DNA of 29,265 nucleotides from a virus: IMG/VR virus record IMGVR_UViG_3300017963_003227, positions 1 through 29,265 of that record. One strand, given 5' to 3'. The notes beneath the pieces were generated by a model. The model saw only the letters and a program-made list of their open reading frames with translations, did not search any database and had not been told where the DNA came from. A program made the translations under genes and the position numbers. Positions 5,556 to 24,553 of the stretch are shown here, piece after piece. Numbering within the stretch: the first letter of the stretch is position 1; each line of letters begins with the position of its first letter.

Positions 5556-5576
5556 AAAAAGGGACCTACCCCCTTT
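5556..5576 (-). terminator. Weak terminator candidate for the minus-strand operon
   Basis: Read on the minus strand, AAAGGG (5576-5571) pairs with CCCTTT (5563-5558) across a 7-nt loop and is followed by two further T. It lies about 50 nt past the stop of the last gene of the late operon. The stem is short, so this is tentative. Confidence 0.35.
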
Positions 5577-5624
5577 CCGGGCAGGAAGGAGCGAAATCCT
5601 ACCCTTCCAGGGGGTAGGAACCCC

Positions 5625-6533
5625 CTATCTCCAATACGGATTTTGCCGGTGAGACGACCTAACCGACGATAGGTGCGGGTAGTCATTTACGTGCTCCCGC
5701 ATTAGAGGGTACGCATCCCACGGGTCTGTCCTTTGCCAATAGGCGATAGCAAGAGAAGCACGCCAGTATTCTTGGAGGCTTGGATTCAACATAGCCGCAA
5801 AGAAGCTAAACGTACTGCTAGGGCCTAGCAAGATGTCACAGAGAGAAAGCAAGTGAAAGTCAGGATACCAGTCCATAGCCCTACTGTCTTTCGTTTTGAG
5901 ATCGTAAGAAAGATACGTACAATCTGCCATCGGTTTGTTTTCAAGAGCAATACCAAGAGTCTCTACCGTCTGAGGATTGAACTCCCTGAACTTTTCTACT
6001 AGTGACAGTGCCTCTGTTGCAATGAACAGGACGGGCCTTTTGAAACGGCTCCAATTTTTGTAGAGCCAGTTCAAATACCATTCGGTAGGTATGATAGGAA
6101 AGATGCCTCTACCATAGTCTCCTCTGCGAAGATGGATTCCAATTATTGTTTCTCCCGCTTGCTGTAATTGTTCTTCTGCTGGGCGCAGTCTTGCAGCTAC
6201 TTTTGGAACAGGGGCAAACAACAAACGTATCTGGTCTTGGTGTGTCTTGTAGTAGCTTGTGTGGTATTGGGCGTACCCTCGAAAGTCTTTACCAACCAGT
6301 TCGTCACCTTCTGGGGGAGTAGGATGCTGAAGACCGCTGCCTGGCTCTGTCCATACAGGCAGCTTCGTTGTAATAGAAGGATTGGAAGCACCAAACAGAT
6401 GAGTGCCTACCCAAGCGGGTAATTCTAACTGTGCGCCATACTGTTGTGCATACTCCGTTAGAAATGCGTACTGAAAGAACTGATTTCCTGCCCGTCCCCA
6501 CCTACCGAATTGGCTCATTGTGACACGGTTCAT
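5625..6533 (-). CDS. GT11 alpha-1,2-fucosyltransferase-like enzyme
   Basis: This 302-aa protein carries the GT11 landmarks in order: GRAGNQFFQYA near the N-terminus (13-23), IHLRRGDY (133-140; the HxRRGDY GDP-fucose-binding motif of alpha-1,2- and alpha-1,6-fucosyltransferases) and DFHLLSLCDILLGPSSTFSF (225-244, the family's later conserved motif). Length matches bacterial GT11 enzymes (about 290-310 aa). It should transfer L-fucose or a related sugar from GDP-fucose to a terminal sugar. No GDP-fucose synthesis genes are present, so the donor must come from the host or from genes elsewhere. Its ATG overlaps the upstream GT2 stop by 4 nt. It is the last gene of the late operon. Confidence 0.85.
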   Translation of the reverse strand: MNRVTMSQFGRWGRAGNQFFQYAFLTEYAQQYGAQLELPAWVGTHLFGASNPSITTKLPVWTEPGSGLQHPTPPEGDELVGKDFRGYAQYHTSYYKTHQDQIRLLFAPVPKVAARLRPAEEQLQQAGETIIGIHLRRGDYGRGIFPIIPTEWYLNWLYKNWSRFKRPVLFIATEALSLVEKFREFNPQTVETLGIALENKPMADCTYLSYDLKTKDSRAMDWYPDFHLLSLCDILLGPSSTFSFFAAMLNPSLQEYWRASLAIAYWQRTDPWDAYPLMREHVNDYPHLSSVRSSHRQNPYWR

Positions 6534-7330
6534 TGTAGGGCCTCTATAAGGTGACGTAATTGGGTTAGCAATATTTCCCCTAGTTCTGCTTTTTCTTTGG
6601 GGGACCTAGCATAATTGCCGTCGTCTCCTGTTGCATAGTGGTGAAGGTACTCTAGTCCTTCCACTATACCAATAGACCCCCCTGCTTGAACCCACAAATA
6701 GTTCAATAAAAAAGAGTCACAAGCATCAAACACCATACGCCAATAATGGCTTTTCCGTTTCTTCTCTTGGATACCCAACCAGTTAGGTAACAGTAAGTCA
6801 GCCCGTTGTCCACGGTATTTTCCAAACACTTTCATAAATGTCTTTTGGTGGACAACCTGATTGCCTGTGTTAAAGAAACAAGGAAAGGAAGGATGTCTGA
6901 TGATTCTTTTGAGAGTCTTTCCGTTGTAGCTTCCAATTAGCTCTCTGTAATCAAATTTAGGCTTGGCAAAGCTAGGACAATACCAACTTTTTTCTGTACG
7001 CCAAAGAGATAGGACCTTGTCAATGTATCCTGCATCCATGCAGTTATCTGAATCACAAGTGATAACCCAAGCACTTGTACTGCGGGCAACGGCTTCAATT
7101 TTGTTTACAAAAACACCCAGGTTTTGAACGTTGCTACCTATCCAAAGTTTCTTGGGTTCTTTGGATAAAAGTGCTAACAATTCGGAATAGCGTTCTGAGC
7201 CATCGTCTACAATAACAATTTCACGTATTGACGGGTGCTTCTGAGCGTAGCTAATACATTGTAACAGTCTATTTCCGCAACCGCGACGTTCTTCCATTTC
7301 ATCGAATGCGGTTATTGCTAAAGTCAGCAT
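6530..7330 (-). CDS. Family 2 glycosyltransferase
   Basis: ATG 7330 is preceded by a near-perfect AGGAGGT with 6-nt spacing and lies 1 nt after the upstream stop, so it is preferred over an in-frame ATG at 7375. The 266-aa protein has the GT-A opening LTLAITAFDE, the nucleotide-binding VIVDDGSE (39-46) and the metal-binding DxD in TCDSDNCMDAGYID (91-104), all GT2 hallmarks. The C-terminal part includes conserved-looking HPSFPCFFNTGNQVVH and Trp-rich segments. It probably transfers one sugar from a nucleotide-sugar donor in the cytoplasm; donor and acceptor cannot be told from sequence. It belongs to the glycan cluster. Confidence 0.85.
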   Translation of the reverse strand: MLTLAITAFDEMEERRGCGNRLLQCISYAQKHPSIREIVIVDDGSERYSELLALLSKEPKKLWIGSNVQNLGVFVNKIEAVARSTSAWVITCDSDNCMDAGYIDKVLSLWRTEKSWYCPSFAKPKFDYRELIGSYNGKTLKRIIRHPSFPCFFNTGNQVVHQKTFMKVFGKYRGQRADLLLPNWLGIQEKKRKSHYWRMVFDACDSFLLNYLWVQAGGSIGIVEGLEYLHHYATGDDGNYARSPKEKAELGEILLTQLRHLIEALQ

Positions 7331-7331
7331 G

Positions 7332-8003
7332 CTAGTACCTCCTGTCCTTACTGGTAAAAAAGTTACTTTCTTCATTTTTAGGCAGAGGCATATCCTCTTT
7401 TGCTACAATTGCCTTTTGTAAAAAGATCAGCCCGTTGTTTCTTCCTGCAAGAGGTTTGCAGGTGTCACAACCTATTACAGCTACTTGAGCAATCGTGCTC
7501 TGACTACGAATGATCGCTGCCCACTCTTCCTCAATGAGGTGCAGTATTGTAAAATGCCCTGGATCAGTCCAGCTTTTATGAAAGATGGAGAAAGCGTCTT
7601 CAATACAGTACCATCCACCGGGGTTAACAAAGGGCCATAAGGCTTTGAAGGATTCAACATGGTGCCACCCTCTGTGACTCCCGTCGTCTATAACAAGAGT
7701 TAATGGTCCTTCTACTTTTGCTACTTCTTCCAAAAAGCTTTTGTTACCTTGGTCTCCCTGGTAACATTGGATCCTTTCTTCTCCTTTTAGCATGCTTTCC
7801 TTTGTAATATCAACACCAACTATGTTTGCAAGAGGAAAAAAGTCACGCCACATGCGCAGAGAACTGCCACGCATAATTCCTAGTTCCAACAGGGTGAACC
7901 GTTCCTCTCTAATCGGTTTGAATCGTTCTTCATAATGGTTCAGATAGTTGTGACCTACTTTGTCCGTCTTGTTTTTGACACCCAATTCAACTAGTGTAGC
8001 CAT
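7332..8003 (-). CDS. Macrocin-type class I SAM O-methyltransferase
   Basis: The 223-aa protein opens with GVKNKTDKVGHNYLNHYEERF, matching the TDK..H.Y...YE.. start of demethylmacrocin/TylF/MycE-like sugar O-methyltransferases. Motif I is LLELGIMRGSS (38-48), the SAM ribose-binding acid is in IVGVDI (Asp65), and VIDDGSH (104-110) with GGWYCIED (129-136) holds the metal-binding acids of this family. It probably methylates a hydroxyl of a sugar. The C-terminal tail (from about 190) is charged and may be disordered. Its start overlaps the preceding gene's stop by 1 nt. The enzyme class is firm; the sugar is unknown. Confidence 0.82.
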   Translation of the reverse strand: MATLVELGVKNKTDKVGHNYLNHYEERFKPIREERFTLLELGIMRGSSLRMWRDFFPLANIVGVDITKESMLKGEERIQCYQGDQGNKSFLEEVAKVEGPLTLVIDDGSHRGWHHVESFKALWPFVNPGGWYCIEDAFSIFHKSWTDPGHFTILHLIEEEWAAIIRSQSTIAQVAVIGCDTCKPLAGRNNGLIFLQKAIVAKEDMPLPKNEESNFFTSKDRRY

Positions 8004-8908
8004 CAGTTACTCCTTTTAGGAAAAACAGTACCGAATGCAGCCAAGTTTTCTGCGTAAAATTCGTGACACACTTTGTCTAGTCGGGGCAGAGAGTATGCAT
8101 CCATGTCAGGCGTTTTTTCAATCCAAGGAGCGTACCACCGACCATAGTGCAGAGCAACAGGTATTTCTCCTCCACGCCACCCTCTAGCAATTGAAGGCAC
8201 TCTTGCATTCTCCTCATCTAAGCCCCAAAAGCACCAGGCCTTTTCTCCTACTTGTGCCATGTCTTCATGCATAAGTAAGTCAATAATCTGTTCGTCAGTT
8301 CCTCCTTTTTCTGGGTTGTTACAGACATGGTACTCTTGCTGTAGTTCGTTCAGTCTTTGTACGGTGGTAGCAGGAATACTTTGTGGTTCCCATAACAACA
8401 GGGCAGTAGACCACATTTTATCCGCAGAAAGAACGTGCGGAAACTGTTCTGCCATTCTTTCATAGATGGCTGTATGCTCTTTCCATTCTTCGTCCCAAAT
8501 TTGCCAACCCATAAACACAGGGACTTCTTCACGGCTAGAAAGAATCCGCTTGCGAATCTTACAGCCAAATCGAGCAGAGAGTTTTTCGCGAGGCCACGCT
8601 GTAAGTTGATCAAACAGAGGCTGGAAGGGTTGTTGCACAAGCACGTCAGCGTCAAGATAGAAAGCTTGCTCCCAACGATTGAGTTGTTCATCAAAGATGC
8701 GAAATTTGGCAAGGAAACCTTGCTCTTCCACTTCTAAAGTGTGAAACCCTCTTGACTCTAAATCATCTATCTCTTTGGAAGGCAGGTGTGAACACACCCA
8801 TAGATAGTCGCCACGATACTGTCCCTGGTTATGACAGTTTACAGCAAGTGACTTGTAGTGGGGTAGGTAAGCTTCATCTGTTACAAAAACAACAACTGTA
8901 CGGCTCAT
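8003..8908 (-). CDS. GT8-like glycosyltransferase, third of three tandem paralogs
   Basis: The 301-aa protein begins with a strand VVVFVTDEAYLPHYKSLAVN (about 5-24), followed by FLAKFRIF (65-72) and the DxD strand FYLDADVLVQQP (83-94). This is the order of GT8/GT-A glycogenin-like transferases. The C-terminus has ALHYGRWYAPWIEK and VCHEFYAENLAAFGTVFPK, shared with the two upstream paralogs at 8910-9743 and 9740-10624. The DxD residues are intact. It probably adds a hexose or similar from a nucleotide sugar. Three diverged copies in a row suggest duplication and specialisation on successive sugars or sites. Confidence 0.78.
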   Translation of the reverse strand: MSRTVVVFVTDEAYLPHYKSLAVNCHNQGQYRGDYLWVCSHLPSKEIDDLESRGFHTLEVEEQGFLAKFRIFDEQLNRWEQAFYLDADVLVQQPFQPLFDQLTAWPREKLSARFGCKIRKRILSSREEVPVFMGWQIWDEEWKEHTAIYERMAEQFPHVLSADKMWSTALLLWEPQSIPATTVQRLNELQQEYHVCNNPEKGGTDEQIIDLLMHEDMAQVGEKAWCFWGLDEENARVPSIARGWRGGEIPVALHYGRWYAPWIEKTPDMDAYSLPRLDKVCHEFYAENLAAFGTVFPKRSN

Positions 8909-8909
8909 G

Positions 8910-9743
8910 TTAAGTGTTTTCTTTCTTAGGAAAAACAGAGGCGAAAGCGTTTCGATGTTGTACGTATGCTTGGTAACAAGTTTTGCCTAAAGGATTGTTG
9001 TAGTACCCTCCAGCCCCTTCTATTTTCTCTATCCAAGGGGCGTACATACCCCAATAGTGCGACACAACAGAAGGGTTGTCAGCCTCATCAAAAGCAAACC
9101 AAGTAACACACCATTTAGGTAAGGGGGCGAGTCTGTCGTACAAAGCAAGGTTCATTACCTGTTGATCGTACTCTCCTGGATTGATTTTACAAAAACGATC
9201 TTGAATGTCGTTCATGCAGACTACTGTGCCTTTTGGAACCCTTTGCGGAGAAAAGAGGACAGCACTACTAACGAAGATACGTTTGTGAATAATAGAAGAG
9301 TATTGCTGTTCTAGTCTCAAAAAAGTGTCTTTTTGTTCTTGAGGGTCAACCCCTTCCTTTTTACAAAAGTGTAGCCAGTCGTCCATGATGGTCGTCTTTT
9401 GCGACCCATCAAAGAAAATTTTGTCAGGCTGGTCATATAGTACTGATAAGATTGTGTTCAAGTTTTTTTGCACTAGAGCATCGCAGTCTAGGTACAAAAC
9501 AAACTGCCATACTCGTAACCAATCATCAAAGATGCGAAATTTGATACGGTTAGTCCAACTCTTCTCTGGAGCACGTAAAATTGTAATACCCCGATTCTCT
9601 ATTGAGAAAGTGTTACAACCGCCTGGACAAATCAAAACAAAGTCTCCTTGCCAATTGCCTTGTTTTGCACAGTTCACAAACAAACTTCGAGCATGATCTA
9701 AGTAAGCACCATCAGCAACCAAAACTAGTGCATGTGGTTTCAT
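8910..9743 (-). CDS. GT8-like glycosyltransferase, second of three tandem paralogs
   Basis: The 277-aa protein is similar along its length to both neighbours: ALVLVADGAYLDHARSLFVN at the start, IKFRIFDDW (67-75), DxD strand LYLDCDALVQ (83-92; Asp-Cys-Asp) and the C-terminal APWIEK...CYQAYVQHRNAFASVFPK signature. Its ATG overlaps the upstream paralog's stop by 4 nt. The DxD motif is intact, so it should be an active metal-dependent transferase. Donor and acceptor are unknown. It lacks the R-G-W-R-G-G/D-E segment found near the C-terminus of the other two copies, which may reflect different acceptor use. Confidence 0.77.
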   Translation of the reverse strand: MKPHALVLVADGAYLDHARSLFVNCAKQGNWQGDFVLICPGGCNTFSIENRGITILRAPEKSWTNRIKFRIFDDWLRVWQFVLYLDCDALVQKNLNTILSVLYDQPDKIFFDGSQKTTIMDDWLHFCKKEGVDPQEQKDTFLRLEQQYSSIIHKRIFVSSAVLFSPQRVPKGTVVCMNDIQDRFCKINPGEYDQQVMNLALYDRLAPLPKWCVTWFAFDEADNPSVVSHYWGMYAPWIEKIEGAGGYYNNPLGKTCYQAYVQHRNAFASVFPKKENT

Positions 9744-10624
9744 ACTATTGGGAACTCCTCATTAAATGCCTTTACGCATTCAGCGTAGAATTCGTGACAC
9801 ACAACGTTTAATCGGTGATTACGGTATCCTCCAGTTTCGGGAGGCAACCCCAAGGCTAGTAACCCTTTCAAGGCGTCTCCCTCTGGAGGGTACTTTACAA
9901 TCCAAGGAGCCATCCACCGCGTGTAATGTAGGATTACAGGCTCCTCATCTCCTCTCCATCCTCTGCCTACACTCTTTACACGATTACAAGGCCAATCGTT
10001 GCCCATGAAAGTCCAGTAGTCTTTTCCAGCTTCCTCTAGTTGATCATACAATAGTAGGTTGACCAACATCTGATCAGCACAAGTAGGATTGATCTCTTTG
10101 AATTCTTCATGCAACTGGCGTAATCTTTCTTGAGTGTCTGGAGGTAAGCTTTTAGGACGAAAGAAGAGGATAGCCATATTGAACATTTTGTTCGTAACAT
10201 GAGGGTACAATTCTTGGACACGAAGGTAAGCGTCTGTGTGTTCTTCCCTTTTTTCATCCCAATGTTTGAGAGCACTTAGAGTGTCTCCATCCTCTTGGTT
10301 TGCTAGTAGTTTTGGTAATCGTGACCGCAGTCCATCAAAGACTTTTTGTAGGGGTCCTTGGACTACAATGTCTAAGTCTAGAAGAAGACACTCATCCCAA
10401 CGGTGAAAGAACGGAGTAAAAGCATGAAACTTGACCATAAAGTCCCAAGAACCTTTTACTTCATAGACATGGATTCCACGATGTTGAAAGTCTGATGCGC
10501 CTCCTCCTGGAGTGATGATACAAAAATCCCCTTTCCAACCTCCTTGTCTTTTGCAGTTGACAAGAACATATTTGGCGTGGTCAAAATAGTTTTGGTCAGC
10601 AACAAAGCAGATAACCTGGTTCAA
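9740..10624 (-). CDS. GT8-like glycosyltransferase, first of three tandem paralogs
   Basis: The start is taken as TTG 10624: AAAAGGAG lies 8 nt upstream and the codon overlaps the FkbM stop as TTGA, mirroring the ATGA junctions elsewhere in the operon. The longer frame to 10681 lies within the FkbM gene. The 294-aa protein has VICFVADQNYFDHAKYVLVN (4-23), FMVKFHAF (62-69), DxD strand LLLDLDIVVQG (80-90), NMAILFFRP and the shared C-terminal LHYTRWMAPWIVK and VCHEFYAECVKAFNEEFP. It is probably a metal-dependent transferase in the same glycan pathway. It has a small insert (PPEGDALKGLLALGLPPETG) relative to the other copies. Confidence 0.78.
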   Translation of the reverse strand: MNQVICFVADQNYFDHAKYVLVNCKRQGGWKGDFCIITPGGGASDFQHRGIHVYEVKGSWDFMVKFHAFTPFFHRWDECLLLDLDIVVQGPLQKVFDGLRSRLPKLLANQEDGDTLSALKHWDEKREEHTDAYLRVQELYPHVTNKMFNMAILFFRPKSLPPDTQERLRQLHEEFKEINPTCADQMLVNLLLYDQLEEAGKDYWTFMGNDWPCNRVKSVGRGWRGDEEPVILHYTRWMAPWIVKYPPEGDALKGLLALGLPPETGGYRNHRLNVVCHEFYAECVKAFNEEFPIV

Positions 10625-11382
10625 AAGACTAGCTCCTTTTTGATGGCGCCAAAGTACCTTTGCTCTTCTTCTAAAACACATTGATGAGTTTCTTTTAGAG
10701 CATCTACTAGCCCATGTTCAATCAATACTTTGTTTGTTTCGTGTTCTGTTCCGGTTCCTTTTGTGTAGTAGTGCGTTTCCATTGTAAGCACATCAACCCT
10801 TCGCAAAGCCTGTAATGAAGGCTTGTGAGTGATTATGCAATTTTCTCCCCCTTCACAATCCAATTTCAGTAACAGTCTGTCGGTTGGACAGACCCACTTT
10901 TCAACCAAAGCGTCTAAACTGATTGGGGAAATATGCGGACATTGATTGTAGATAGGCAGTGCGTCTCTACCCGCCTGTCCGGGAGGAGAAGCCATTTGCT
11001 CTACAGGAAAACCAATTTGGTCTTGGGTAACGTAGCTGTTTGTTGCGCTGTAATAAGACTCTGCTGTGTCTTCTGAAAGACCTTGCCATACAGGCCCAGT
11101 AGCTAATGCTAATTGAAAGCACTTAACACGGGGTAGGTGCTCTACAAATGATTTTAATCCTGCAAAAGTAACAGGGTCAGGTTCAATTGCTACGATCTGA
11201 GCCAGAGGAAACAAGCACCGTGCAAAGGTAGTAAAGCTTCCAACGTTGGCACCTACATCCAAAACAACGTCAGGGATAATAGGACAAGACTTTAATCGGT
11301 AATAGTCTTTGCCACAAACCTCATTGAAACAGAGTTCAAATTCCCGTTTGTACGTTTCTGTGTACTCTTGCTGGCTGAGCAT
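10621..11382 (-). CDS. FkbM-family SAM methyltransferase
   Basis: The 253-aa protein has motif I VVLDVGANVGSF (39-50), acidic motif II VAIEPDP (64-70) and the FkbM landmark LKLDCEGGE (172-180), where the conserved D-x-E-G-x-E element sits at the end of a strand. FkbM enzymes methylate hydroxyls, often on sugars or polyketides. Between the SAM fold and the FkbM motif is a longer, less conserved stretch (about 100-160) that may hold the acceptor. The ATG follows the previous gene by 22 nt and has no clear ribosome site. It is one of three FkbM proteins in the cluster. Confidence 0.85.
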   Translation of the reverse strand: MLSQQEYTETYKREFELCFNEVCGKDYYRLKSCPIIPDVVLDVGANVGSFTTFARCLFPLAQIVAIEPDPVTFAGLKSFVEHLPRVKCFQLALATGPVWQGLSEDTAESYYSATNSYVTQDQIGFPVEQMASPPGQAGRDALPIYNQCPHISPISLDALVEKWVCPTDRLLLKLDCEGGENCIITHKPSLQALRRVDVLTMETHYYTKGTGTEHETNKVLIEHGLVDALKETHQCVLEEEQRYFGAIKKELVF

Positions 11383-11403
11383 AAAACACTATCGCTTGTT
11401 GAG

Positions 11404-12120
11404 TTAGTTGGTTGTATCGTTGGTAGTAGCTTCCCCAGAGGTGAACTTTCGATTCTTTGCCCACACGTGGATACAAGCCCCATAACACTTAGTCCAAACA
11501 GTATGGGATTGCGCTAGTTCAAAAATAAAACGGTAAAGGGTTTCTGCAACGTGGGGAACACAACTACCGCATTGAGCCCAGACATGAAGTTCTGCTGCGA
11601 AGTATCCAGAGTTCAAAATCACTTGCTTGCTTTTCTTCTCGGTGATAGCAAACAGTTCTGCGCTTTCGCAGTCCATCTTGACTACGTACTTTTTGCCCCT
11701 ATGAACATTGTAGAGTTCAGCAAGAGAAACACTTTGAATTTTACTAGGTTGTAAGTTTTCGTGCCAACAAGGGTGGTCTCGATTTACTACCATCCAGTGT
11801 AGCGGGGGTGTTGTCGGTTGCGGCTCAAACATTTCTCCTTGTCCTAATGCCTTTTGAACAGGAAAAACGTTAGAGTACCCCAACTGTTGTGCATTAGTGA
11901 CAAGTCTTTTGAAGCTCCAAGGATTGGGTTCTACTGCTACAATTTTGGTAAGTGGAAAATTGGCAGCAGCAAACATTGTAATACTGCCCACATCCGCACC
12001 TATGTCATAAATAACGTCAGGAACAAACGACAATTTTTTCAATCTATACTCGTCAGCAGAGCCAGCAGACAAAAACAGAGAATTCAGTTCGTCATCAGTC
12101 ATGTTTTCTTGCTCTGTCAT
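11404..12120 (-). CDS. FkbM-family SAM methyltransferase
   Basis: The 238-aa protein resembles its downstream neighbour: VIYDIGADVGSITMF (36-50), VAVEPNPWSF (61-70), then VKMDCESAE (147-155) in the place of the usual D-x-E-G-A-E, with Ser replacing the conserved Gly. The N-terminus (MTEQENMTDDELNSLFLSAG) is an acidic helix. A C-terminal stretch of about 70 aa contains several Cys, Trp and His residues (HVWAQCGSCVP, WTKCYGACIHVWAK). It is probably a sugar O-methyltransferase; the Gly-to-Ser change may alter substrate choice. A 4-nt gap separates it from the upstream methyltransferase. Confidence 0.8.
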   Translation of the reverse strand: MTEQENMTDDELNSLFLSAGSADEYRLKKLSFVPDVIYDIGADVGSITMFAAANFPLTKIVAVEPNPWSFKRLVTNAQQLGYSNVFPVQKALGQGEMFEPQPTTPPLHWMVVNRDHPCWHENLQPSKIQSVSLAELYNVHRGKKYVVKMDCESAELFAITEKKSKQVILNSGYFAAELHVWAQCGSCVPHVAETLYRFIFELAQSHTVWTKCYGACIHVWAKNRKFTSGEATTNDTTN

Positions 12121-12124
12121 GAAG

Positions 12125-12658
12125 TCACTCCTTTGTACGCTTTTGGAACACCCAAGTAGCTAACCGTTCTTGAGTAAGAAAGTAAGGTAGATTATTGACT
12201 TTACTAAACTGGTCTACGTCTTTTGCTACAGGGTTGTCTCCACAGTAGTCATGTCCTAACAGGTATCCACCCTGTTTAACTTTAGGCAACCAAGCATTGA
12301 TATCTTGAGCCACTTGAATATGGTCTGCGTCAATGTACACCCAATCAAAGTAGTCTTTAGGAAAGAGAGTAGCAGCAGCAAGTGACCATTCACGTAAAAT
12401 ACGTACTGCGGGGTTGTTTGCATACCGTTCCAAGAGTGTGTAGTAACTTTTTAAGTAGTCTTGGTTGATCTTATCAACAGTCAAAGGGTCCCAACCAGGA
12501 GGACACTGCCAGCAGTCAATTAGATAAAAACGTCGTGGGCTGTTTTTTTGAAGAATTTGTTGAGAAAATTGCCCATCTAACACTCCAACTTCTGCTGCAA
12601 CCCCGTAGCAAGGCAAAGTAGCCATAAGGGTTGTTCTGCTTGTAAGGTCTAGTCTCAT
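12125..12658 (-). CDS. Class I SAM methyltransferase, second of a tandem pair
   Basis: ATG 12658 gives an ATGA overlap with the upstream gene and is preferred over the in-frame ATG at 12676. The 177-aa protein has motif I AEVGVLDGQFS (22-32), a D-C-W element (LIDCW), YIDADH with the following IQVAQDINAWLPKVKQGG, and LLGHDYCGDNP. This is the Methyltransf_24 layout, where the D-x-D-H acids may bind a metal or the substrate. It closely resembles the preceding gene. It probably methylates a sugar or phosphate-linked hydroxyl; the substrate is unknown. Confidence 0.8.
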   Translation of the reverse strand: MRLDLTSRTTLMATLPCYGVAAEVGVLDGQFSQQILQKNSPRRFYLIDCWQCPPGWDPLTVDKINQDYLKSYYTLLERYANNPAVRILREWSLAAATLFPKDYFDWVYIDADHIQVAQDINAWLPKVKQGGYLLGHDYCGDNPVAKDVDQFSKVNNLPYFLTQERLATWVFQKRTKE

Positions 12659-13209
12659 CGTTTTTGTACCGCCCAACTAGGATAGTTCTTTTCGTACAAG
12701 CTGTCTCCTTCTGTTACGAACAAAGGTAGCTTTTCCTTTTTAACAAACGTATCAACATGATGCTTTACCCGCAAGTGGTCTCCGCAGGTTAGGTAGTCAT
12801 GTCCGGTAAGCCACCCCCCTCGTTTAATTTTTGGCCACCATGCTGCAATGTCTTGGTCTACTTGGGTGTGGTCTCCGTCAAGGTATACCCAATCAGGAAA
12901 AAGGAAAGGAGTGGCGGCGGCAAAAGACACAGAGAAGTCACGAACGATCTGCACCCTTGCAAGGAGAGCAAACTTGCCACACACTGCTTGGTATCGTTGT
13001 TCCTGCTCCGGCTGAGAGACGTTAGCAGCATCCTCTTCATGTTCCTTTCCTTGTAGAAACAACCAGGGGTCAACTAGGTAGAGGACAGAAGGAGTACAAA
13101 CCTGTAATAGTGTCTCAGAAAACAAACCTTCTGACACTCCTACTTCAACACCTACTCCGTTTTTGGGAAGAGAAGCCATCAGTGTAGATCGGTTTTTCAG
13201 GTTGAGCAT
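12655..13209 (-). CDS. Class I SAM methyltransferase, first of a tandem pair
   Basis: The 184-aa protein has motif I VEVGVSEGLFS (21-31), LVDPW (45-49), VYLDGDHTQVDQDIAAWWP (108-126) and LTGHDYLTCGD, aligning segment by segment with the next gene (12125-12658). Both belong to the Methyltransf_24 group. Start codon ATG 13209 overlaps the epimerase stop by 13 nt. The pair probably arose by tandem duplication and then diverged, as identity by eye is concentrated in the SAM and DxDH motifs. Its role is presumably in tailoring the same glycan. Confidence 0.8.
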   Translation of the reverse strand: MLNLKNRSTLMASLPKNGVGVEVGVSEGLFSETLLQVCTPSVLYLVDPWLFLQGKEHEEDAANVSQPEQEQRYQAVCGKFALLARVQIVRDFSVSFAAATPFLFPDWVYLDGDHTQVDQDIAAWWPKIKRGGWLTGHDYLTCGDHLRVKHHVDTFVKKEKLPLFVTEGDSLYEKNYPSWAVQKR

Positions 13210-14096
13210 GTTGCTTTAATCCCTTCTGGTAAAGTAAAAAATGAACGAAGAGAGGGTAACAAGGAATGCATGAGGGTTGTGTCTAACTGTTGGTGCTCTA
13301 TTTCTTGTAGTGTTTTTGGTCCGGGTAGGCTTACTGGACTACACTCTCTTTTCATAGTTGAGCAGATTAACTGAATAATCTCTGTTACTGTAGCCATCTC
13401 TCCAGAGCCTACGTTGATTGTTTTACCCCAAGGAATTGCTTCCATTAGGCCAACAACAACAGCAATGAAATCTTTTATATAGATGAACTCTCTAGAAAAA
13501 CGATCTGCTCCAGTTGTGATCTCTGGCTGGTGCCCTGCACGTAGTCTTTTGATAGTGTTAGGGATGAGTCGGCTTTTGTTTGGATCACTAGGACCATACA
13601 CGTTTGCTGATCGAACAGTAAATACAGGTACACCAAAGTTTTTGTAGTAGCATCTAGCAATGTGACCAGCACAGGCTTTTGACGCCTCATAAATACCTGT
13701 CGGATTTAACGCTTGGTCTTCTTTGTAGGGCAGAGGTCCTGGTCCATATGATTTATCACTCTCCATACACATAACCCCTTTGATCTGTTCTGAACGGCGA
13801 CAAGCTTCCAGCAAAGCAGCAGTACCCATAATGTTAACAGAAAAGCAGTCAAGAGGGTCTTGGCAGCAGTGCCGGACAATAGACCGAGCAGCACAGTGGT
13901 AAACAAAGTCTATTTCCAAATTGACAAGTAAACTCAGTAGTCTGTCTGTGTTTGTAACGTCAGCCTGAACTGCGTGAAAAGTAGCTGTTGATGGGAAGCG
14001 ATCATGGTAGACGCCAACAACGTAGTGTTCCTTCTGTAAATACCTACAAAGATGGTTTCCAATAAACCCAGCAGCACCAGTAACCAAAACGTTCAT
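13197..14096 (-). CDS. NAD-dependent NDP-sugar epimerase/dehydratase
   Basis: ATG 14096 is chosen: AAAGGAG lies 8 nt upstream and it overlaps the fusion gene stop as ATGA. The 299-aa protein starts directly with the Rossmann motif NVLVTGAAGFIGNHL, followed by DFVYHCAA, the Ser-Asp-Lys active-site element MESDKSYG, the catalytic YxxxK (IYEASK) and SANVYGPSDPNKSRLIPNT. The last element and the length are reminiscent of CDP-glucose or GDP-mannose 4,6-dehydratases and related extended SDR enzymes. It probably converts a nucleotide sugar used by one of the neighbouring transferases. It is the only visible nucleotide-sugar enzyme in the cluster, so other donors must come from the host. Confidence 0.88.
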   Translation of the reverse strand: MNVLVTGAAGFIGNHLCRYLQKEHYVVGVYHDRFPSTATFHAVQADVTNTDRLLSLLVNLEIDFVYHCAARSIVRHCCQDPLDCFSVNIMGTAALLEACRRSEQIKGVMCMESDKSYGPGPLPYKEDQALNPTGIYEASKACAGHIARCYYKNFGVPVFTVRSANVYGPSDPNKSRLIPNTIKRLRAGHQPEITTGADRFSREFIYIKDFIAVVVGLMEAIPWGKTINVGSGEMATVTEIIQLICSTMKRECSPVSLPGPKTLQEIEHQQLDTTLMHSLLPSLRSFFTLPEGIKATCST

Positions 14097-15514
14097 TGGA
14101 CTGTCTCCTTTTGCTTTGTTTCCCAAGAACCCCAATCAAATTCGCTAAGTCTCTCTGTCCAAACGTGTGGACCAAGGTTGAAAAAGTTGCTAAACTTAGT
14201 TACTCCTTCTCCTATGTCAGAAGGTCCATCAATCTGAAAAACCATCCCAGGAACAAAACAGTAGCAATTCAATTCTGGTTGTAGTTGTATTAAAGCGTGA
14301 TCACTTCCTGTTGACTTATGCATGATCTCATTCATACGAAAGAGAATTTTGTCTGCGCTTTGAGGGTTGACCAAGTAGCCTTGATTTGAGAAGGCACCAT
14401 AGACTTTTACAATGTGTTGTGTCTCAGTTAGCTCAAAGTCTCTGCCCAATTCGGGATGCCATTTGCCCCCTGGAGTAGTATGAAACGTTGCTCCCAAAAA
14501 GAAAATGTCCCAAGGTTTGTTCAGAAAGTGTCCTTCAACGTATCTTAGGCGTTGTTGCATGTCTATACAGAGTAAGCAGTCATCTTCAAGCACCCCGATG
14601 ATTTTCCCTGTGTCTCTTGCTTCAGCTATTAGAGCAGTGTGAGAAAGCCAGTTACCTATTGTATTTGGGGTTGCTCGCATTAGAGAAACTTTTTCTTCCA
14701 AGCCAGTGTAGTCCTCTTTGCGAAGGGCGGAAAACTGTTTAACTAAAATTCCTGACCGTCGCATTTGCACTTTCATATTTTTACGACGGTCAATACGGTG
14801 AGAAAGGTTGATGTACCTCCAATCAATGTCTTCTAATTTAATTTTCACTACTGGTTCAGACATAGTTGTTAAGTACCCTCCAGCAGGAGAGATTCTCTCT
14901 ATTGCTTTTTGTTTTTCTTCCTCTGTTGGAGCCAAGCTAAGAAAGTCACAAACTTCACTCACAAACCTTGGTGGATTGTTAATAGCTCTTTCGTAGCTTA
15001 CAAGAAGAGTAGGCAGCTTTGTGTCCTGAATGAAGTCAAAGTTGCAGTTCCACCAGCGTCTGGTTTGTGCAGTGATGTCTTTTAGGGTTCTCAGTCCTAA
15101 GCTAGCATGGGCTTTGTCAAAACGTAACTCTCCTTGAATCGTTGCTAGGGGGTCCCTAGACACAAGAATAACATAAGGATTTCTTAGAAGGGGTGTAGTG
15201 TCTTGTACCCTTGTGATTCCTACTGGGTCCTTCCATCCCCAAACGTCACACTCTTTATTCCGTTGTTTAACCCGTTCTGCACGTACTTCAATGTAAGCAC
15301 TCTGCATCTTCTGGTCTTCAAAGTTAAAAGCATCCATGTCTTCTCTTGGACCTAGGTCAATTCCTAGTGCTTCAATGACGGCAGCAACCATCGACGTACC
15401 TCCCCTAGGAATGCCCGCAATAATTATGGTCTGCTGTTGAGGTCTTTCTACGTGAGCCTTTCTATTCAAAGAAATAGAAGTGTCCACTTTTCCTGTGCGT
15501 TGAAAAGTATTCAT
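14093..15514 (-). CDS. Sulfotransferase-GT25 glycosyltransferase fusion
   Basis: The 473-aa protein joins two enzymes. Residues 29-215 form a P-loop sulfotransferase: IIAGIPRGGTSM (31-42) is the 5'-phosphosulfate loop and VSRDPLATIQGELR (118-131) matches the 3'-phosphate-binding segment. From about 231 a GT25 (LPS-type) transferase begins with WRYINLSHRIDRR (232-244), then NTIGNWLSHTALI and the acidic VLEDDCLL (308-315), the E/D-D-D motif of GT25, followed by FFLGATFH and AFSNQGYLVNP. Both active sites appear intact. It probably both glycosylates and sulfates the same glycan, using PAPS from the host. ATGA junctions tie it to the genes on both sides. The fusion is unusual. Confidence 0.82.
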   Translation of the reverse strand: MNTFQRTGKVDTSISLNRKAHVERPQQQTIIIAGIPRGGTSMVAAVIEALGIDLGPREDMDAFNFEDQKMQSAYIEVRAERVKQRNKECDVWGWKDPVGITRVQDTTPLLRNPYVILVSRDPLATIQGELRFDKAHASLGLRTLKDITAQTRRWWNCNFDFIQDTKLPTLLVSYERAINNPPRFVSEVCDFLSLAPTEEEKQKAIERISPAGGYLTTMSEPVVKIKLEDIDWRYINLSHRIDRRKNMKVQMRRSGILVKQFSALRKEDYTGLEEKVSLMRATPNTIGNWLSHTALIAEARDTGKIIGVLEDDCLLCIDMQQRLRYVEGHFLNKPWDIFFLGATFHTTPGGKWHPELGRDFELTETQHIVKVYGAFSNQGYLVNPQSADKILFRMNEIMHKSTGSDHALIQLQPELNCYCFVPGMVFQIDGPSDIGEGVTKFSNFFNLGPHVWTERLSEFDWGSWETKQKETVQ

Positions 15515-16182
15515 GATCGTTGCTCAAACAAAATGTTTTCACGGGCATAGATACCAATAGGACAAAACCAAGGAGCTAACTTTTTGATTAGTTCTTCTTG
15601 TGTAGGTTCATCTGCATAGAGAGGGGTGCTATGAGACTCAATGTAAAGGTATCGAACCTTTTTGAATGTCTCTTGGGCCCCTTCAATTACAAACAGTTGA
15701 CTGCCTTGGACATCTGCCCAAACAAAGTCAATTACAGTATTAGAAGTATCACCATACCGGGTGTCGTACCATGTGTCGAGTCGAATACAAGGTACGTCGA
15801 TTGGGTCTTTGAATTTAATTTCAGGAGAACGTTGGTAATGTCCGGTAGGCTGAGAAAGGCTGCCGGAAAAGTCCCAATCCTCTCGATAGCCTGCCCGCCC
15901 TGTACTAGCGTGGAACATTCGTGAGCCATCAACATCAGCAACTGCTTTTGGCACAAGGAACACACTACTGCTTAGTTGACGTCGCTTTTGTAAATTGTTA
16001 TACCAACGGGCAATAGCTCTGCTTTCGCAGTCAAAACAAAAGATGGTTGCTTGGGGCATTGATTCTAGAAAAGCTAGCGTGTCTGTTCCTTCATGGCAAC
16101 CAATCTCTAAAATAAGAGGGGAAACTGTCTTAACAAACTCTCTGATCTCCCCAGCAGTTAGGGTGTGAGGATACTGTTTCAT
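15511..16182 (-). CDS. FkbM-family SAM methyltransferase
   Basis: The 223-aa protein has motif I LEIGCHEGTDT (25-35), acidic motif II FCFDCES (48-54) and VWADVQGSQLFVIEGA (154-169), which fits the FkbM pattern D-x-x-G-x-x......GA with Gln in place of the usual Glu residues. RYLYIES follows as the next strand. The N-terminus is short. It probably methylates a sugar hydroxyl. Its start forms an ATGA overlap with the upstream GT gene. It is more distant from the other two FkbM proteins (10621-11382, 11404-12120) than they are from each other. Confidence 0.8.
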   Translation of the reverse strand: MKQYPHTLTAGEIREFVKTVSPLILEIGCHEGTDTLAFLESMPQATIFCFDCESRAIARWYNNLQKRRQLSSSVFLVPKAVADVDGSRMFHASTGRAGYREDWDFSGSLSQPTGHYQRSPEIKFKDPIDVPCIRLDTWYDTRYGDTSNTVIDFVWADVQGSQLFVIEGAQETFKKVRYLYIESHSTPLYADEPTQEELIKKLAPWFCPIGIYARENILFEQRS

Positions 16183-16880
16183 GAGTGCGCTCCTGTAAAA
16201 ACGTTGTAAGCGGTTCCTGGAAAAGTCTCTGGTCCAGGATACCGATTAAAGCTGTTACCTATCGTACTTTTTGTCCCAATGTGCTCTGCTAAAGAAGGCA
16301 TGTGAACTAATTCAGTGTAGCCTAATGCGTTAGCAGAAAGAGAGACACCTCCATCAATGTTCCGCCACCCGTTTTTAACACATAAAGCGCGTTCAGCAAT
16401 TCTGTTAGTACCCAACAAGCCTGCAAATGAATGCCGGCTAAAAACCAACGCTTGCGCCCCTCTTCCTTTCTGATTAGAAGGATACCAACCTTTTTTGCCG
16501 TCTGCTAGCTCTTCATTCTCTTTGTAGTTACAAAGGTTGAGGTAAGCTTTCTTAGGGTATTCTCCTTGCTCAATGTACTGGCGAACCCCTTTACAAAGCA
16601 AGACATCATCTTGAAATAACGCAAAGTGAGTTGCTTGTGGATTACAAACAAGTAGTTGCCAAGCAGCAGTCATCCAGTTTGCTACAATACGAATAGGAGG
16701 GTTGTGAGTGACTACAGGCAGGCTAAACAGTTCGTATTCACTGCAAGAAGAGTCACCATCCACGAAAAGAGTAGGGTTGTGAAACCCAGCTTCTATTAGA
16801 CTTTTTAGAGTTATTGGAAAAAGATCATACCGCCGTTCAGGAACGGTCAGCAGGCCATACGCCCAAATCGGGTTCTTCAC
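16179..16880 (-). CDS. GT-A-fold glycosyltransferase
   Basis: The start is GTG 16880, with AAAAGGAG 8 nt upstream; it overlaps the end of the zinc-ribbon gene by 44 nt. The 233-aa protein begins WAYGLLTVPERRYDLFPITLKSL, followed by a strand PTLFVDGD, then HFALFQDDVLLCKGV with the metal-binding QDDV (90-93). It then has RGAQALVFSRH and RNIDGGVSL, a G-D/N-x-D-like later motif. This is the layout of small GT2/GT-A enzymes with a DDV motif. It is the first transferase of the cluster after the tail genes. Donor and acceptor are unknown. Confidence 0.75.
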   Translation of the reverse strand: MKNPIWAYGLLTVPERRYDLFPITLKSLIEAGFHNPTLFVDGDSSCSEYELFSLPVVTHNPPIRIVANWMTAAWQLLVCNPQATHFALFQDDVLLCKGVRQYIEQGEYPKKAYLNLCNYKENEELADGKKGWYPSNQKGRGAQALVFSRHSFAGLLGTNRIAERALCVKNGWRNIDGGVSLSANALGYTELVHMPSLAEHIGTKSTIGNSFNRYPGPETFPGTAYNVFTGAHS

Positions 16881-17292
16881 TTTGTTCGCTCCTTTTGATC
16901 GCTTCCAATACTAGCTTACGTGCCCAGCTACGCGCAAAGATTATCCCGCCCGGCAAGGTTGTTCCATACTTAGCTATTCTAGAAAGAATCGGTTTTCCGT
17001 CTAATTTCCACTCTCGCCGCTTAGCTTCTGCAAGTAACGCATTAACGATCTTTATAAGGTTGTCTCGGCATCTATCAGGCCCCCAACGGTTCATCTGACT
17101 GATCCACGCCCTACAAGCACAGCCAGAAACCACGTCTGTTCCTAAGCGGGACAATAACAGTGTGTGAAGTATTGTTCCTGGCACTTTTGGACACGTCCTT
17201 CTGGGGGGTTTTGTGGATTTTCCCGAATAGACCCATCCGCAGCGTGGGCAAGGGAGCCATTGCGTTCCTTGTCGTTTTATGTCGCAGTCCAT
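16837..17292 (-). CDS. Zinc-ribbon protein at the tail/glycan boundary
   Basis: The 151-aa protein begins with a treble-clef or ribbon-like LPCPRCGWVYSGKSTKPPRRTCP, in which three or four Cys could bind zinc. It continues with a CACRAWISQMNRWGPDRCRDN segment (Cys-x-Cys plus a third Cys) and a long helix (LIKIVNALLAEAKRREW). The C-terminal half is basic with aromatic residues. The M-N-x-W-G-P-D-x-C pattern is one I associate, from memory, with proteins next to glycosyltransferases in planctomycete-type prophages; no function is known to me. ATG 17292 overlaps the upstream stop as TAATG. It could be a nucleic-acid-binding or adaptor protein. Confidence 0.65.
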   Translation of the reverse strand: MDCDIKRQGTQWLPCPRCGWVYSGKSTKPPRRTCPKVPGTILHTLLLSRLGTDVVSGCACRAWISQMNRWGPDRCRDNLIKIVNALLAEAKRREWKLDGKPILSRIAKYGTTLPGGIIFARSWARKLVLEAIKRSEQSEEPDLGVWPADRS

Positions 17293-17801
17293 TAGAGTGT
17301 TGTAATTGAACAGGTTGAACTAGTTGGGTCACACTTAGGCCCTGGTGTACCATGCTCAGCATAAGGCACGTCAAAATTGGAAAAATGCATACAATCTCGA
17401 TCTTCAAAGGTTTGAAGTTCCCAAGCGATATAGTATGATACTAGTCCTCCAGCCAGTGAATACCACGCCCAGACTTCTCCTCCGGCCCATACCCAAACTG
17501 TGACCGTCACCAAAGTTGCTCCACAAGGAGCGTCGTCTGACGTGTATTGCCACGTACAGCTGTTACCAACTTCCTGAAGAAAGTCTGTAACATAGCTGCC
17601 GTTCACCTCAGTATCGCAGTCAGCACAATTATCATCTACTACACCAGAAATGTCCACCTGAATTTGATTTGGATGATCCCCAATACATCCCCCACAACTT
17701 ACACAACAATTCCCTACTGGAAGAAACCGCCATAGACCTGTTCCGGTTTTGGCAGGCAGCCAAAGATTGCTGGATCGTCTTGTGTACTTAGGTCTAAACA
17801 T
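17292..17801 (-). CDS. Cysteine-rich protein, probably minor tail component
   Basis: The 169-aa protein contains 11 cysteines: CCVSCGGC near residue 32, CADC and NGSY about 58-68, SCTWQY, PCG, and three near the C-terminus. The middle is rich in beta strand (ATLVTVTVWVWAGGEVWAWYSL). The pattern C-x-x-C...NGSY...C-x-W...PCG is suggestive of a disulfide- or metal-stabilised beta domain. No signal peptide is seen. It lies at the end of the tail gene series, 1 nt after the upstream stop (TAG-T-ATG), so a virion role is the best guess. The family was not identified. Confidence 0.6.
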   Translation of the reverse strand: MFRPKYTRRSSNLWLPAKTGTGLWRFLPVGNCCVSCGGCIGDHPNQIQVDISGVVDDNCADCDTEVNGSYVTDFLQEVGNSCTWQYTSDDAPCGATLVTVTVWVWAGGEVWAWYSLAGGLVSYYIAWELQTFEDRDCMHFSNFDVPYAEHGTPGPKCDPTSSTCSITTL

Positions 17802-17802
17802 A

Positions 17803-18381
17803 CTAGGTAGGGCATTCTGCGGCGATGACGTACCATTTAGTGTGGTACTTAACTGCTACACATTTTGTAGCTGTGGCTAAAGAATCTCCAGTACTCAAAA
17901 GCCAGTCATTTACGGTTATGTTATCTCCCGTATCAGCAAGAGTGCTTCCTGCCCAAACAGACATAGTAGCAGAACTGTCTCTTGCCAACTCTCCATCTAG
18001 TTTGCCGAAAGCGATATCAAACCCAGAGAGCAAAGCAAACCATTTGCCAAACTTTGTACGCACAACCACAATCCAATCTTGACCAATGTCAGATTGTGAA
18101 AGGTTGTAGACTGTTCTTTCAAGACCTGTCACAGCTACTAAAGCAGGAGGATCACTATCATCCAACTTGTAAATGTCACAAGTAGCACTTCCAGGTTCAT
18201 CATCGTTAGCTAGGCCTGGAATACCTCCTGAATCTTGAGGCTTCGCTAGATACACTTCTGGAGGAAGAAAAGTGTTCGGCAAGGGTGATTGGGTTGCTCT
18301 TTTTAACTTTTCTTGCTGGAACCAATCCCACATCTCGTTGAGACGGTCCTCTGCTCTTTGTGTGAGAATCTTTTGAGCCAT
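17803..18381 (-). CDS. Hypothetical tail-module protein
   Basis: ATG 18381 is chosen because it follows the previous stop by 4 nt; the longer frame to 18492 lies inside the upstream gene. The 192-aa protein starts with a charged amphipathic helix (TQRAEDRLNEMWDWFQQEKLKRA), a Pro-rich linker (SPLPNTFLPPEVYLAKP), then a beta-rich part (ATCDIYKLDDSD, LVAVTGLERTVYNLS, DWIVVVRTKFGKWFALLSG) ending VAVKYHTKWYVIAAECPT. A helical N-terminus followed by beta domains is common in tail-tip and baseplate-like proteins. No family was recognised and there is no clear ribosome site; coupling to the upstream gene is likely. Confidence 0.6.
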   Translation of the reverse strand: MAQKILTQRAEDRLNEMWDWFQQEKLKRATQSPLPNTFLPPEVYLAKPQDSGGIPGLANDDEPGSATCDIYKLDDSDPPALVAVTGLERTVYNLSQSDIGQDWIVVVRTKFGKWFALLSGFDIAFGKLDGELARDSSATMSVWAGSTLADTGDNITVNDWLLSTGDSLATATKCVAVKYHTKWYVIAAECPT

Positions 18382-18385
18382 GAGA

Positions 18386-18811
18386 CTATCTTGGAAGAAT
18401 GAGAAGGGAGAAACGAACAACACCCTTTGTTGCCCGTATTGACAACTTCTGAACAGAAACGGGTGTGCCTTTAATGGTTTCTCCTGGAGCAATAACCCAA
18501 CAAGAGTCAGGCACAGCGGGTAAGCCTAAAAGAAGTTGTTTTTGAGCTAGTTCCGCTTGTTCTTCTGGACTTAGCTTTTTGGTAAGATTCCTACCCTCTT
18601 CATTGCGAATAACAAGCATACCCTCTTGGTTAGTTAACCAACCTAGGTCGATGGCCTCAAACTGTTCTGCTGCTTTACAAGAGCGGTGATAAGCTTGTTC
18701 GTCAGATTGCAGTTCGTAAGAGTACCGTGACTCAAACGGTACTGGTTCTTGTCCAACGATTTGATGATAGACTTGCTCAACAACTGTCACGCGGTTTTTG
18801 ATGTCAGGCAT
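18386..18811 (-). CDS. Hypothetical minor tail protein
   Basis: The 141-aa protein has an N-terminal VTVVEQVYHQIVGQEPVPFESRYSYELQS, a central GWLTNQEGMLVIRNEEGRNL and a C-terminal WVIAPGETIKGTPVSV followed by LSIRATKGVVRFSLLILP. The last segments resemble a small beta-sandwich that might decorate a tail tube or tip. No family was recognised. It follows the 19265-18837 gene by 25 nt, in the series of small tail genes after the tape measure. Confidence 0.6.
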   Translation of the reverse strand: MPDIKNRVTVVEQVYHQIVGQEPVPFESRYSYELQSDEQAYHRSCKAAEQFEAIDLGWLTNQEGMLVIRNEEGRNLTKKLSPEEQAELAQKQLLLGLPAVPDSCWVIAPGETIKGTPVSVQKLSIRATKGVVRFSLLILPR

Positions 18812-18836: not shown

Positions 18837-19265
18837 TCATGCTTCAAACGCTTCTACAACTACTGAACAACTTGCGGTGTCCGCTTTGATTCTTAGTGTG
18901 TTTGTGTTTGCCCCACTCGTGCCTGGACCAGTACCGTATTCTCCAAAAAGGTTTCTAGACAATCGTAAGCACCAGGTTTCTCCTGCGCGCACTTCAGCTA
19001 GTGGGTAGAATACTCCTGTTTCTGGATCCCAAATACCTACATTAACGTAGTTGGTGCTGTCGAGGTTTGTTATTTGGCAAAGGCCAGGAATTGTCAGTTC
19101 CGATAAGTCAACATCGATACCGGCAATTGTAACGGTGAATACACCCGGAACAGGTCCCTTAAAAGAGGCCACATCAGTTTGAAAGGAAGAGGGTCGTGGA
19201 GAAGACCACTGGTTGTCTCCCACAAGAACAGTCATCCACTGCCGTATTGTTGCTTCGTTAGCCAT
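18837..19265 (-). CDS. Probable minor tail protein
   Basis: The 142-aa protein is almost entirely beta strand by eye: MTVLVGDNQWSS, GVFTVTIAGIDVDLSEL, CQITNLDSTNYVNVGIWDPETGVFYPLAEVRAG and a Gly/Thr-rich C-terminus (YGTGPGTSGANTNTLRIKAD). The I-x-N-L-D-x-x-N-Y-V-x-V-G segment is one often seen in small phage proteins encoded after the tape measure. CGGAG precedes the ATG. The structural role is inferred from position and composition. Confidence 0.6.
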   Translation of the reverse strand: MANEATIRQWMTVLVGDNQWSSPRPSSFQTDVASFKGPVPGVFTVTIAGIDVDLSELTIPGLCQITNLDSTNYVNVGIWDPETGVFYPLAEVRAGETWCLRLSRNLFGEYGTGPGTSGANTNTLRIKADTASCSVVVEAFEA

Positions 19266-23719: not shown

Positions 23720-23735
23720 TGAAAAGACTCCTTTA

Positions 23736-24182: not shown

Positions 24183-24183
24183 C

Positions 24184-24552: not shown

Positions 24553-24553
24553 G

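Follow-up and report, generated by a model that had tools for sequence, protein, structure and literature searches.

A conserved tail-linked glycosyltransferase and an exchangeable glycan cassette in a lineage of uncultured phages

We analyzed a phage sequence of 29,265 bp (IMG/VR record IMGVR_UViG_3300017963_003227, classed as a linear phage record; hereafter the window) in which the tail operon continues into a cassette of genes for glycan enzymes (positions 5625-17292). The main fact that emerged beyond a preliminary description of this DNA is the combination of a conserved core glycosyltransferase (hereafter GT-A) with a swappable enzyme cassette across an uncultured lineage. Virion glycosylation as such is already known. 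The cassette probably serves the cytosolic glycosylation of phage tail-tip proteins, with GT-A as conserved priming transferase and variable enzymes for elaboration. This reading builds on gene content, synteny, the core/variable pattern, the lack of membrane machinery and the Thr-rich tail proteins, from which we infer acceptor, linkage, order of transfer and benefit.

A constant transferase with a changing cassette

With an alignment of a GT-A pair as bait we found 24 viral loci, and the GT-A family alignment comprised 24 sequences. Gene maps of these loci showed GT-A behind the tail genes T294, T142, T141 and T229 in nearly all cases, followed by different enzymes. In the reverse test T294 served as bait (with a six-sequence alignment subset, the 18-sequence alignment being too diverged) and recovered 34 loci. 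Counting lineages with GT-A or with 6 kb or more of sequence downstream, 14 of 16 distinct ones had GT-A behind the tail-tip genes. The two exceptions were L064, with a different transferase in place of GT-A, and L068, without any transferase there. GT-A was the best conserved among the module proteins compared, with a median pairwise identity of 45% (T160 44%, T142 42%, T294 38%, tape measure 20%). Its distances correlated with those of T294 (Mantel r 0.40, P 0.002) and showed no significant correlation with those of T142, T141 or the tape measure.

The enzymes following GT-A form a hypervariable region rich in glycosyltransferases (GTs) beside the tail genes, comparable to the pelagimyophage host recognition cluster. 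Among 146 cassette proteins surveyed with Pfam, 17 matched Methyltransf_24 and 15 radical SAM, besides group 1 and GT2 glycosyltransferases, UDP-glucose dehydrogenases, epimerases, C-methyltransferases and DegT aminotransferases. Examples of the frequent radical SAM genes are L002:11625-12743, L004:11689-12804 and L055:13966-15048.

A tblastn search of GT-A against 50,697 isolate-phage records revealed no relative, and judged by two marker sequences the lineage appears to be without close isolate relatives. Among bacterial genome contigs GT-A was found on one contig of an Acidobacteria metagenome-assembled genome and in none of 395 other Acidobacteria genomes. This relative (L032:95-832) lies at the very start of its contig, is followed by bacterial genes (malQ), and represents a prophage edge or a binning error. 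The tape measure as bait found no relative in viral contigs, though low-identity homologues occur in many phages, and a GT25 alignment recovered the sister phage L002 only.

The AlphaFold2 model of GT-A (predicted local distance difference test, pLDDT, 90.8) had a GT-A fold with an FQDD motif. The top Foldseek matches in the PDB were POMGNT1 (2.9e-9), ppGalNAc-T2, mimivirus R655/R699 and COLGALT1; by this model, the nearest solved folds would mostly be transferases for proteins or protein-linked sugars. Among viral models, resemblance was found to gp87 of Mycobacterium phage Ardmore and to proteins annotated as glycosyltransferases in Microbacterium and Gordonia phages. A profile comparison (hhalign) of the GT-A family with Ardmore gp87 gave P 3e-4 at a probability of 40%, with DD and PSLxxH motifs in common. 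Ardmore is a Cheoctovirus, as are the F1 phages with reportedly glycosylated capsids (PMC11256854), and its gp87 gene is located near the 3' genome end. Two relatives encoded GT-A fusions, with a methyltransferase and a GT4-like domain (L050) or with a GT4-like domain (L060), which were separate in L077 (domains assigned by eye and mutual similarity). This argues that GT-A and the cassette belong to one pathway.

The operon of the window and its sister phage

The region 5625-17292 comprised 15 minus-strand open reading frames (ORFs) with a coding fraction of about 1, of which 14 encoded enzymes (Table 1); the preliminary description, which spoke of twelve genes, had undercounted them. Its observation that they continue the tail genes without a break or a change of strand held, with spacings of -61 to +21 bases between the ORFs and an enzyme block running from 16880 down to 5625. 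On this strand a repeat protein, a tailspike, neck/connector-like genes, the tape measure, small tail proteins and then the enzymes follow each other uninterrupted. The GC content of the cluster (44.0%) and of the tail genes (45.4%) revealed no break.

The enzymes comprise seven glycosyltransferase domains, six methyltransferases, one short-chain dehydrogenase/reductase (SDR) acting on nucleoside diphosphate (NDP) sugars and one sulfotransferase domain fused to GT25. The glycosyltransferase families proposed earlier were recovered, and only their count of six was wrong, since the same description had listed seven; its six methyltransferases (three FkbM-type, two Methyltransf_24, one Methyltransf_24-like), NDP-sugar enzyme and sulfotransferase domain were all confirmed. 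Families were assigned with Pfam, PHROGs and NCBIfam. The GT11 protein, two of the three GT8 proteins, one FkbM and one Methyltransf_24 match remained below curated cut-offs (24.3 bits for GT8, PF01501). Catalytic motifs were present in 14/14 enzymes including these, and the DxD motif was kept in all three GT8-like proteins. For the SDR enzyme the nearest NCBIfam model was dTDP-glucose 4,6-dehydratase, under its cut-off, and no NCBIfam equivalog cut-off was reached. Of the methylated, fucosylated and sulfated glycan previously envisaged, the enzyme families are thus present, and its exact structure would follow from family assignments only; for fucose, the GT11 match stood while a complete GDP-fucose pathway was not found in the window.

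The same arrangement was found in the sister phage L002, an independent contig of 64.8 kb of which an identical 20.7-kb sequence occurred in a second metagenome. Its gene order is tail genes, U151, GT-A, FkbM, GT25, epimerase, (radical SAM), GT8, Methyltransf_24, GT2, methyltransferase and GT11. Protein identities to the window were 43% for GT-A, 57% for FkbM, 60% for GT25, 46% for the epimerase, 51% for GT2 and 47% for the syntenic GT11 ortholog. Those of the tail proteins were comparable (33-52%), and the tape measure proteins of the two phages gave no BLAST match. L002 lacks the sulfotransferase half, so its GT25 half stands alone. It encodes one GT8 and one Methyltransf_24 protein where the window has three and two paralogs, respectively, and the window further has two extra FkbM genes.

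The comparison with related phages that had been called for thus showed the tail-plus-glycan order to recur in L002 and in the wider lineage. This bears on the possibility, raised along with the initial description, that a chromosomal island was captured by chance or that the assembly is chimeric. The window is only a 29-kb fragment, which leaves some room for such an event. Since L002 repeats the order at 42-60% protein identity, assembly error or a recent island is refuted, and with syntenic homologues in independent contigs, no GC break and intact overlapping ORFs we regard this explanation as negligible.

Table 1. Features of the window and DxH transferases of related loci
Feature	Position	Strand	Evidence and remarks
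Repeat protein	28005-29264	-	
Tailspike-like protein, pectate-lyase fold	25615..28014	-	PF12708 5e-13
Three tail/neck genes: T160, T148, neck/tail completion	23237..24636	-	46-52% identity to L002; weak connector PHROG matches for T148 and the completion gene
Tape measure protein	20170..22509	-	PHROG 1533 1e-74
T294 tail protein	19281..20165	-	Unbiased bait
T142 tail protein	18837..19265	-	Gly-Thr loop, GTGPGTSG in window, GTGTGT in relatives; candidate acceptor
T141 tail protein	18386..18811	-	38% identity to L002
T229-family tail-tip protein	17803..18492	-	Mucin-like in seven relatives, not in window
Cys- and Ser/Thr-containing tail-tip candidate	17292..17801	-	Position; C-terminus PTSSTCSITTL
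Small CxC-MNxxGPxxC protein (U151 domain)	16837..17292	-	Adjoins GT-A
GT-A glycosyltransferase, proposed priming enzyme	16179..16880	-	FQDD metal motif; no Pfam match
FkbM-family methyltransferase	15511..16182	-	PF05050 1e-11; TIGR01444 2e-12; EIGCHEG; 57% to L002
Sulfotransferase-GT25 fusion	14093..15514	-	Sulfotransfer_3 28.1 bits (cut-off 27), PRGGTS and SRDP; Glyco_transf_25 26.0 bits (cut-off 24), C-half
NDP-sugar dehydratase/epimerase (SDR)	13197..14135	-	Epimerase 1e-46; GAAGFIG and YEASK; 46% to L002
Methyltransf_24-type methyltransferase a	12655..13209	-	PF13578 5e-11; paralog of b
Methyltransf_24-type methyltransferase b	12125..12676	-	PF13578 2e-12; 40% to L002
FkbM-like methyltransferase 2	11404..12120	-	PF05050 9e-4, 19.8 bits (cut-off 22.7); DIGADVG
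FkbM methyltransferase 3	10621..11382	-	TIGR01444 2e-15, above cut-off; DVGANVG
GT8-like glycosyltransferase a	9740..10681	-	PF01501 6e-7, 29.7 bits, above cut-off; DLDI
GT8-like glycosyltransferase b	8910..9743	-	PF01501 7e-4, 19.6 bits, under cut-off; paralog; DCDA
GT8-like glycosyltransferase c	8003..8908	-	PF01501 7e-3, 16.4 bits, under cut-off; paralog; DADV
Class I methyltransferase	7332..8003	-	PHROG 21658 4e-23; PF13578 25.2 bits (cut-off 26.3)
GT2 glycosyltransferase	6530..7375	-	PF00535 1e-10, 42.3 bits; DSD; 51% to L002
GT11-like fucosyltransferase	5625..6533	-	PF01531 20.8 bits (cut-off 23.9); PHROG 2644 2e-12; HLRRGDY
Terminator-like hairpin just 3' of cassette	5565..5585	-	7-pair stem, 5 G-C pairs, T-rich tail
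DxH transferase	L018:5725-7638		
DxH transferase	L015:7184-9196		
DxH transferase	L023:4628-6598		
DxH transferase	L025:5579-7657		
DxH transferase	L056:13641-15536		
DxH transferase	L064:13032-15047		

The tail module of the window had PHROG matches only to tape-measure and connector-type families, in searches not aimed at T4-like genes. The predicted structure of T294 (pLDDT 82, predicted template modelling score 0.55) had no significant PDB match. Terminator-like sites in total numbered near the shuffle expectation, and an Rfam search of the window found no RNA family. A DUF7192 protein (Pfam 4e-16) at 3-662 (+) is interrupted by the contig end.

Candidate acceptors on the tail side

Tail proteins adjoining the enzymes were rich in threonine repeats. 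Tail-side proteins contained 218 GTGT/TGTG motifs in 121,407 residues, versus 5 in 107,765 residues of cassette and minus-strand ORFs, a 39-fold enrichment per residue. The motifs were mostly located in T142 (11.9 per 1000 residues in this family), T229 and neighbouring tail proteins and were written in mixed synonymous codons, which argues for selection at the protein level. Likewise, 9 of the 11 proteins with a Ser/Thr-rich window (at least 50% over 30 aa) were encoded between T294 and GT-A. In seven lineages (L018, L025, L015, L064, L023, L056, L059) T229 was mucin-like with long Ser/Thr tracts. The T229 of L018 (2832-5264), for example, has 811 aa with 36% Ser+Thr and a run of more than 30 Thr in mixed codons. 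A literature search with limited terms on mucin-like, Thr-rich phage tail proteins returned no paper on the subject. In the window, candidate acceptors might be T142 (GTGPGTSG), the protein at 17292-17801 (PTSSTCSITTL) and the tailspike (SGTGTGTVS).

All six mucin-like lineages with sequence beyond T229 encoded downstream a transferase of about 650 aa with a GT2 domain and DxH (DCH) and GGEE motifs, and a close homologue was found in none of 25 other lineages. Some of these DxH transferases end with a U151 (CxC-MDxxGPxxC) or an NPCBM domain; the former is the domain that stands next to GT-A as a separate protein in the window. By its sequence the DxH enzyme appears reminiscent of the GT27 mucin-type GalNAc-transferases, with which it has the GT2 domain and the DCH and GGEE motifs in common, and GT-A folds like POMGNT1 and ppGalNAc-T2. 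It is not a significant member of that family, however, since its match to GalNAc-T7 was not significant (E 0.45) and no lectin domain was found. Its best sequence match in the PDB was 6h1j, a probable beta-1,3-N-acetylglucosaminyltransferase.

In the mechanism that we propose, the cluster would be the 3' end of the tail operon and encode a soluble cytosolic pathway by which tail-tip proteins would be O-glycosylated before or during tail assembly. GT-A, as the putative core transferase of the lineage, may transfer the first sugar onto a conserved Ser/Thr site of a tail-tip protein, and the exchangeable cassette would extend and decorate this primer. In the window phage, decoration would consist of GT8-, GT2-, GT25- and GT11-type sugars, six methyl transfers and one sulfate. 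The phage might benefit by presenting, where it adsorbs, a surface that is lineage-specific, host-like or shielded. In its widest form we put this forward tentatively: a widespread uncultured lineage may possess a modular mucin-type O-glycosylation system, in which GT-A, in some members together with the DxH transferase, has as acceptors tail-tip proteins that are rich in Ser/Thr, mucin-like or endowed with Gly-Thr repeats, and exchangeable glycosyl-, methyl-, sulfo- and radical SAM enzymes build a glycan specific to each lineage on the part of the virion that adsorbs.

Several points weigh against tail-tip glycosylation. The evidence for a tail-tip glycan consists of genes and models. The fold matches of GT-A (template modelling score of about 0.6) are general for GT-A enzymes and assign neither donor nor acceptor. 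GT-A is absent from L068, which kept the tail genes, the T229 of the window is short and not mucin-like, and Gly-Thr repeats could alternatively be structural. The association between mucin-like T229 and the DxH transferase (Fisher P 1e-6) is overstated by this value, because the mucin label changed only about three times on the poorly resolved T294 tree, and the enzyme had been spotted in these very loci. Finally, 9 of the 24 contigs encoded a thymidylate-synthase-like gene, so that a different acceptor may apply to those nine.

This acceptor would be DNA, with the transferases glycosylating modified bases of the phage genome, as glycosyltransferases of other phages do according to the available text of PMC12619734 (citing Pyle 2024). 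In the contigs inspected, the thymidylate-synthase-like gene had HAD-type and MazG-like neighbours. Those of L079, L080, L081 and L082 encode proteins of about 350-380 aa in which VPCN replaces PCH, possibly related to base modification. The gene was, however, absent from the window, from L002 (64.8 kb) and from L012, L015, L018, L022 and L025 (77-112 kb, with GT-A and cassette), all of them possibly incomplete, which makes DNA hypermodification unlikely as a general function. The enzymes are moreover encoded in the tail operon and not among replication genes, and we know of no decoration of DNA by sulfotransferases or FkbM enzymes. Altogether we consider this explanation improbable.

Target of the pathway and known systems

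Among 140 cassette proteins none had more than one hydrophobic segment, and that one was marginal, while tape measure proteins were positive in the same test. GtrA was detected in 0 of 24 contigs (seven control genomes were positive), and Wzy_C had no match above cut-off, with positive controls; Wzx was not searched by family model. The cassettes therefore do not have the make-up of an O-antigen or capsule locus, with no convincing Wzy or ligase and no polytopic protein, and the lack of polytopic proteins, GtrA and Wzy_C favours a soluble cytosolic acceptor. A tyrosine integrase was encoded on only 3 of 24 contigs, many of them fragments, and on neither the window nor L002, which argues against lysogenic conversion as the general use. 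Host serotype conversion by the cassette is thus unlikely, and prophage conversion of the GtrABC type was rejected for lack of a flippase and rarity of integrases. GtrABC is likewise a phage-encoded glycosyltransferase set; the present cassette differs in lacking a flippase or membrane-bound transferase, in its far greater number of enzymes and, apparently, in not being tied to lysogeny.

The preliminary description had offered decoration of virion proteins and late remodelling of the cell surface as options. In the latter, the O-antigen, capsule or S-layer glycan would be modified late in infection so as to prevent superinfection or help release. The host recognition cluster of pelagimyophages and cyanomyophages likewise has GT8, UDP-glucose dehydrogenase and radical SAM genes in it or nearby, and PMC7029224 interprets these as serving to modify the O-chain. 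The window and L002 encode a secreted PEP-CTERM protein, and modification of a soluble precursor would need no membrane machinery. Against this, no flippase, polymerase, ligase or membrane-bound transferase was seen, integrases were rare, and GT-A was more conserved than the tail proteins, which is unusual for an accessory gene of surface conversion. We therefore consider remodelling unlikely. Decoration of virion proteins, the stronger of the two options, is partly supported: it is favoured by the lack of membrane or flippase components together with a conserved first transferase locked to the tail genes, and by Thr-rich tail proteins adjoining the enzymes and the motifs in common with a mycobacteriophage protein.

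The PEP-CTERM proteins, which are exosortase substrates (window 2189-2779 (+), L002 16751-17389 (-)), suggest a host with exosortase. Among 23 contigs they were confined to these two and were rejected as a general partner of the glycan system.

As a further possibility, the product might be a small glycoside or modified peptide, diffusible or secreted, that targets the host or competing phages. Radical SAM enzymes, which 15 of 146 cassette proteins match, typically tailor peptides and sugar antibiotics, and their combination with methyl, sulfo and glycosyl transfer resembles natural-product loci. We noticed neither a precursor peptide nor a gene for export or resistance, and such a product would leave the constant adjacency to tail-tip genes unexplained, so that we think it very improbable.

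Glycosylation of the virion has been reported for the mycobacteriophages Che8, Rita and other F1 phages (Freeman et al. 2023, as presented in the available parts of PMC11256854 and PMC12619734). According to the same parts, the glycans on the capsid and tail-tube subunits of these phages are linked to their own glycosyltransferases, and the F1 phage Maravista has two or more glycosyltransferase genes at its 3' genome end. Judged from the genes, the present lineage likewise has soluble phage-encoded glycosyltransferases linked to virion genes, and GT-A has a weak profile match and the DD and PSLxxH motifs in common with Ardmore gp87. As far as these sources describe it, Maravista differs in having no tail-linked cassette of 14 enzymes including methyl-, sulfo- and NDP-sugar enzymes.

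Such a cluster has a precedent: the pelagimyophage cluster is also a hypervariable, glycosyltransferase-rich region by the tail genes, located between VrlC and gp14 in T4-like myophages and about 45 kb long, and the available text of PMC7029224 reports no conserved anchor transferase. The present lineage differs from it in one conserved GT-A, in Thr-rich tail proteins and in a tail module of another type. The capsid glycan machinery of chlorovirus PBCV-1 (PMC7826918) resembles the proposed pathway in that multidomain transferases encoded by the virus work in the cytoplasm, in the conserved core of its glycan and in its methylated sugars. PBCV-1 is, however, a eukaryotic virus with N-glycans on its major capsid protein, and we claim no gene homology.

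Because enzymes and candidate acceptors neighbour each other in one operon, the question of the acceptor is directly testable. Glycosylated phage virions have so far been few cases with simple gene sets. If the proposed pathway is true, glycans would be a regular and evolving part of phage adsorption organs, which would bear on host recognition, shielding and enzyme discovery.

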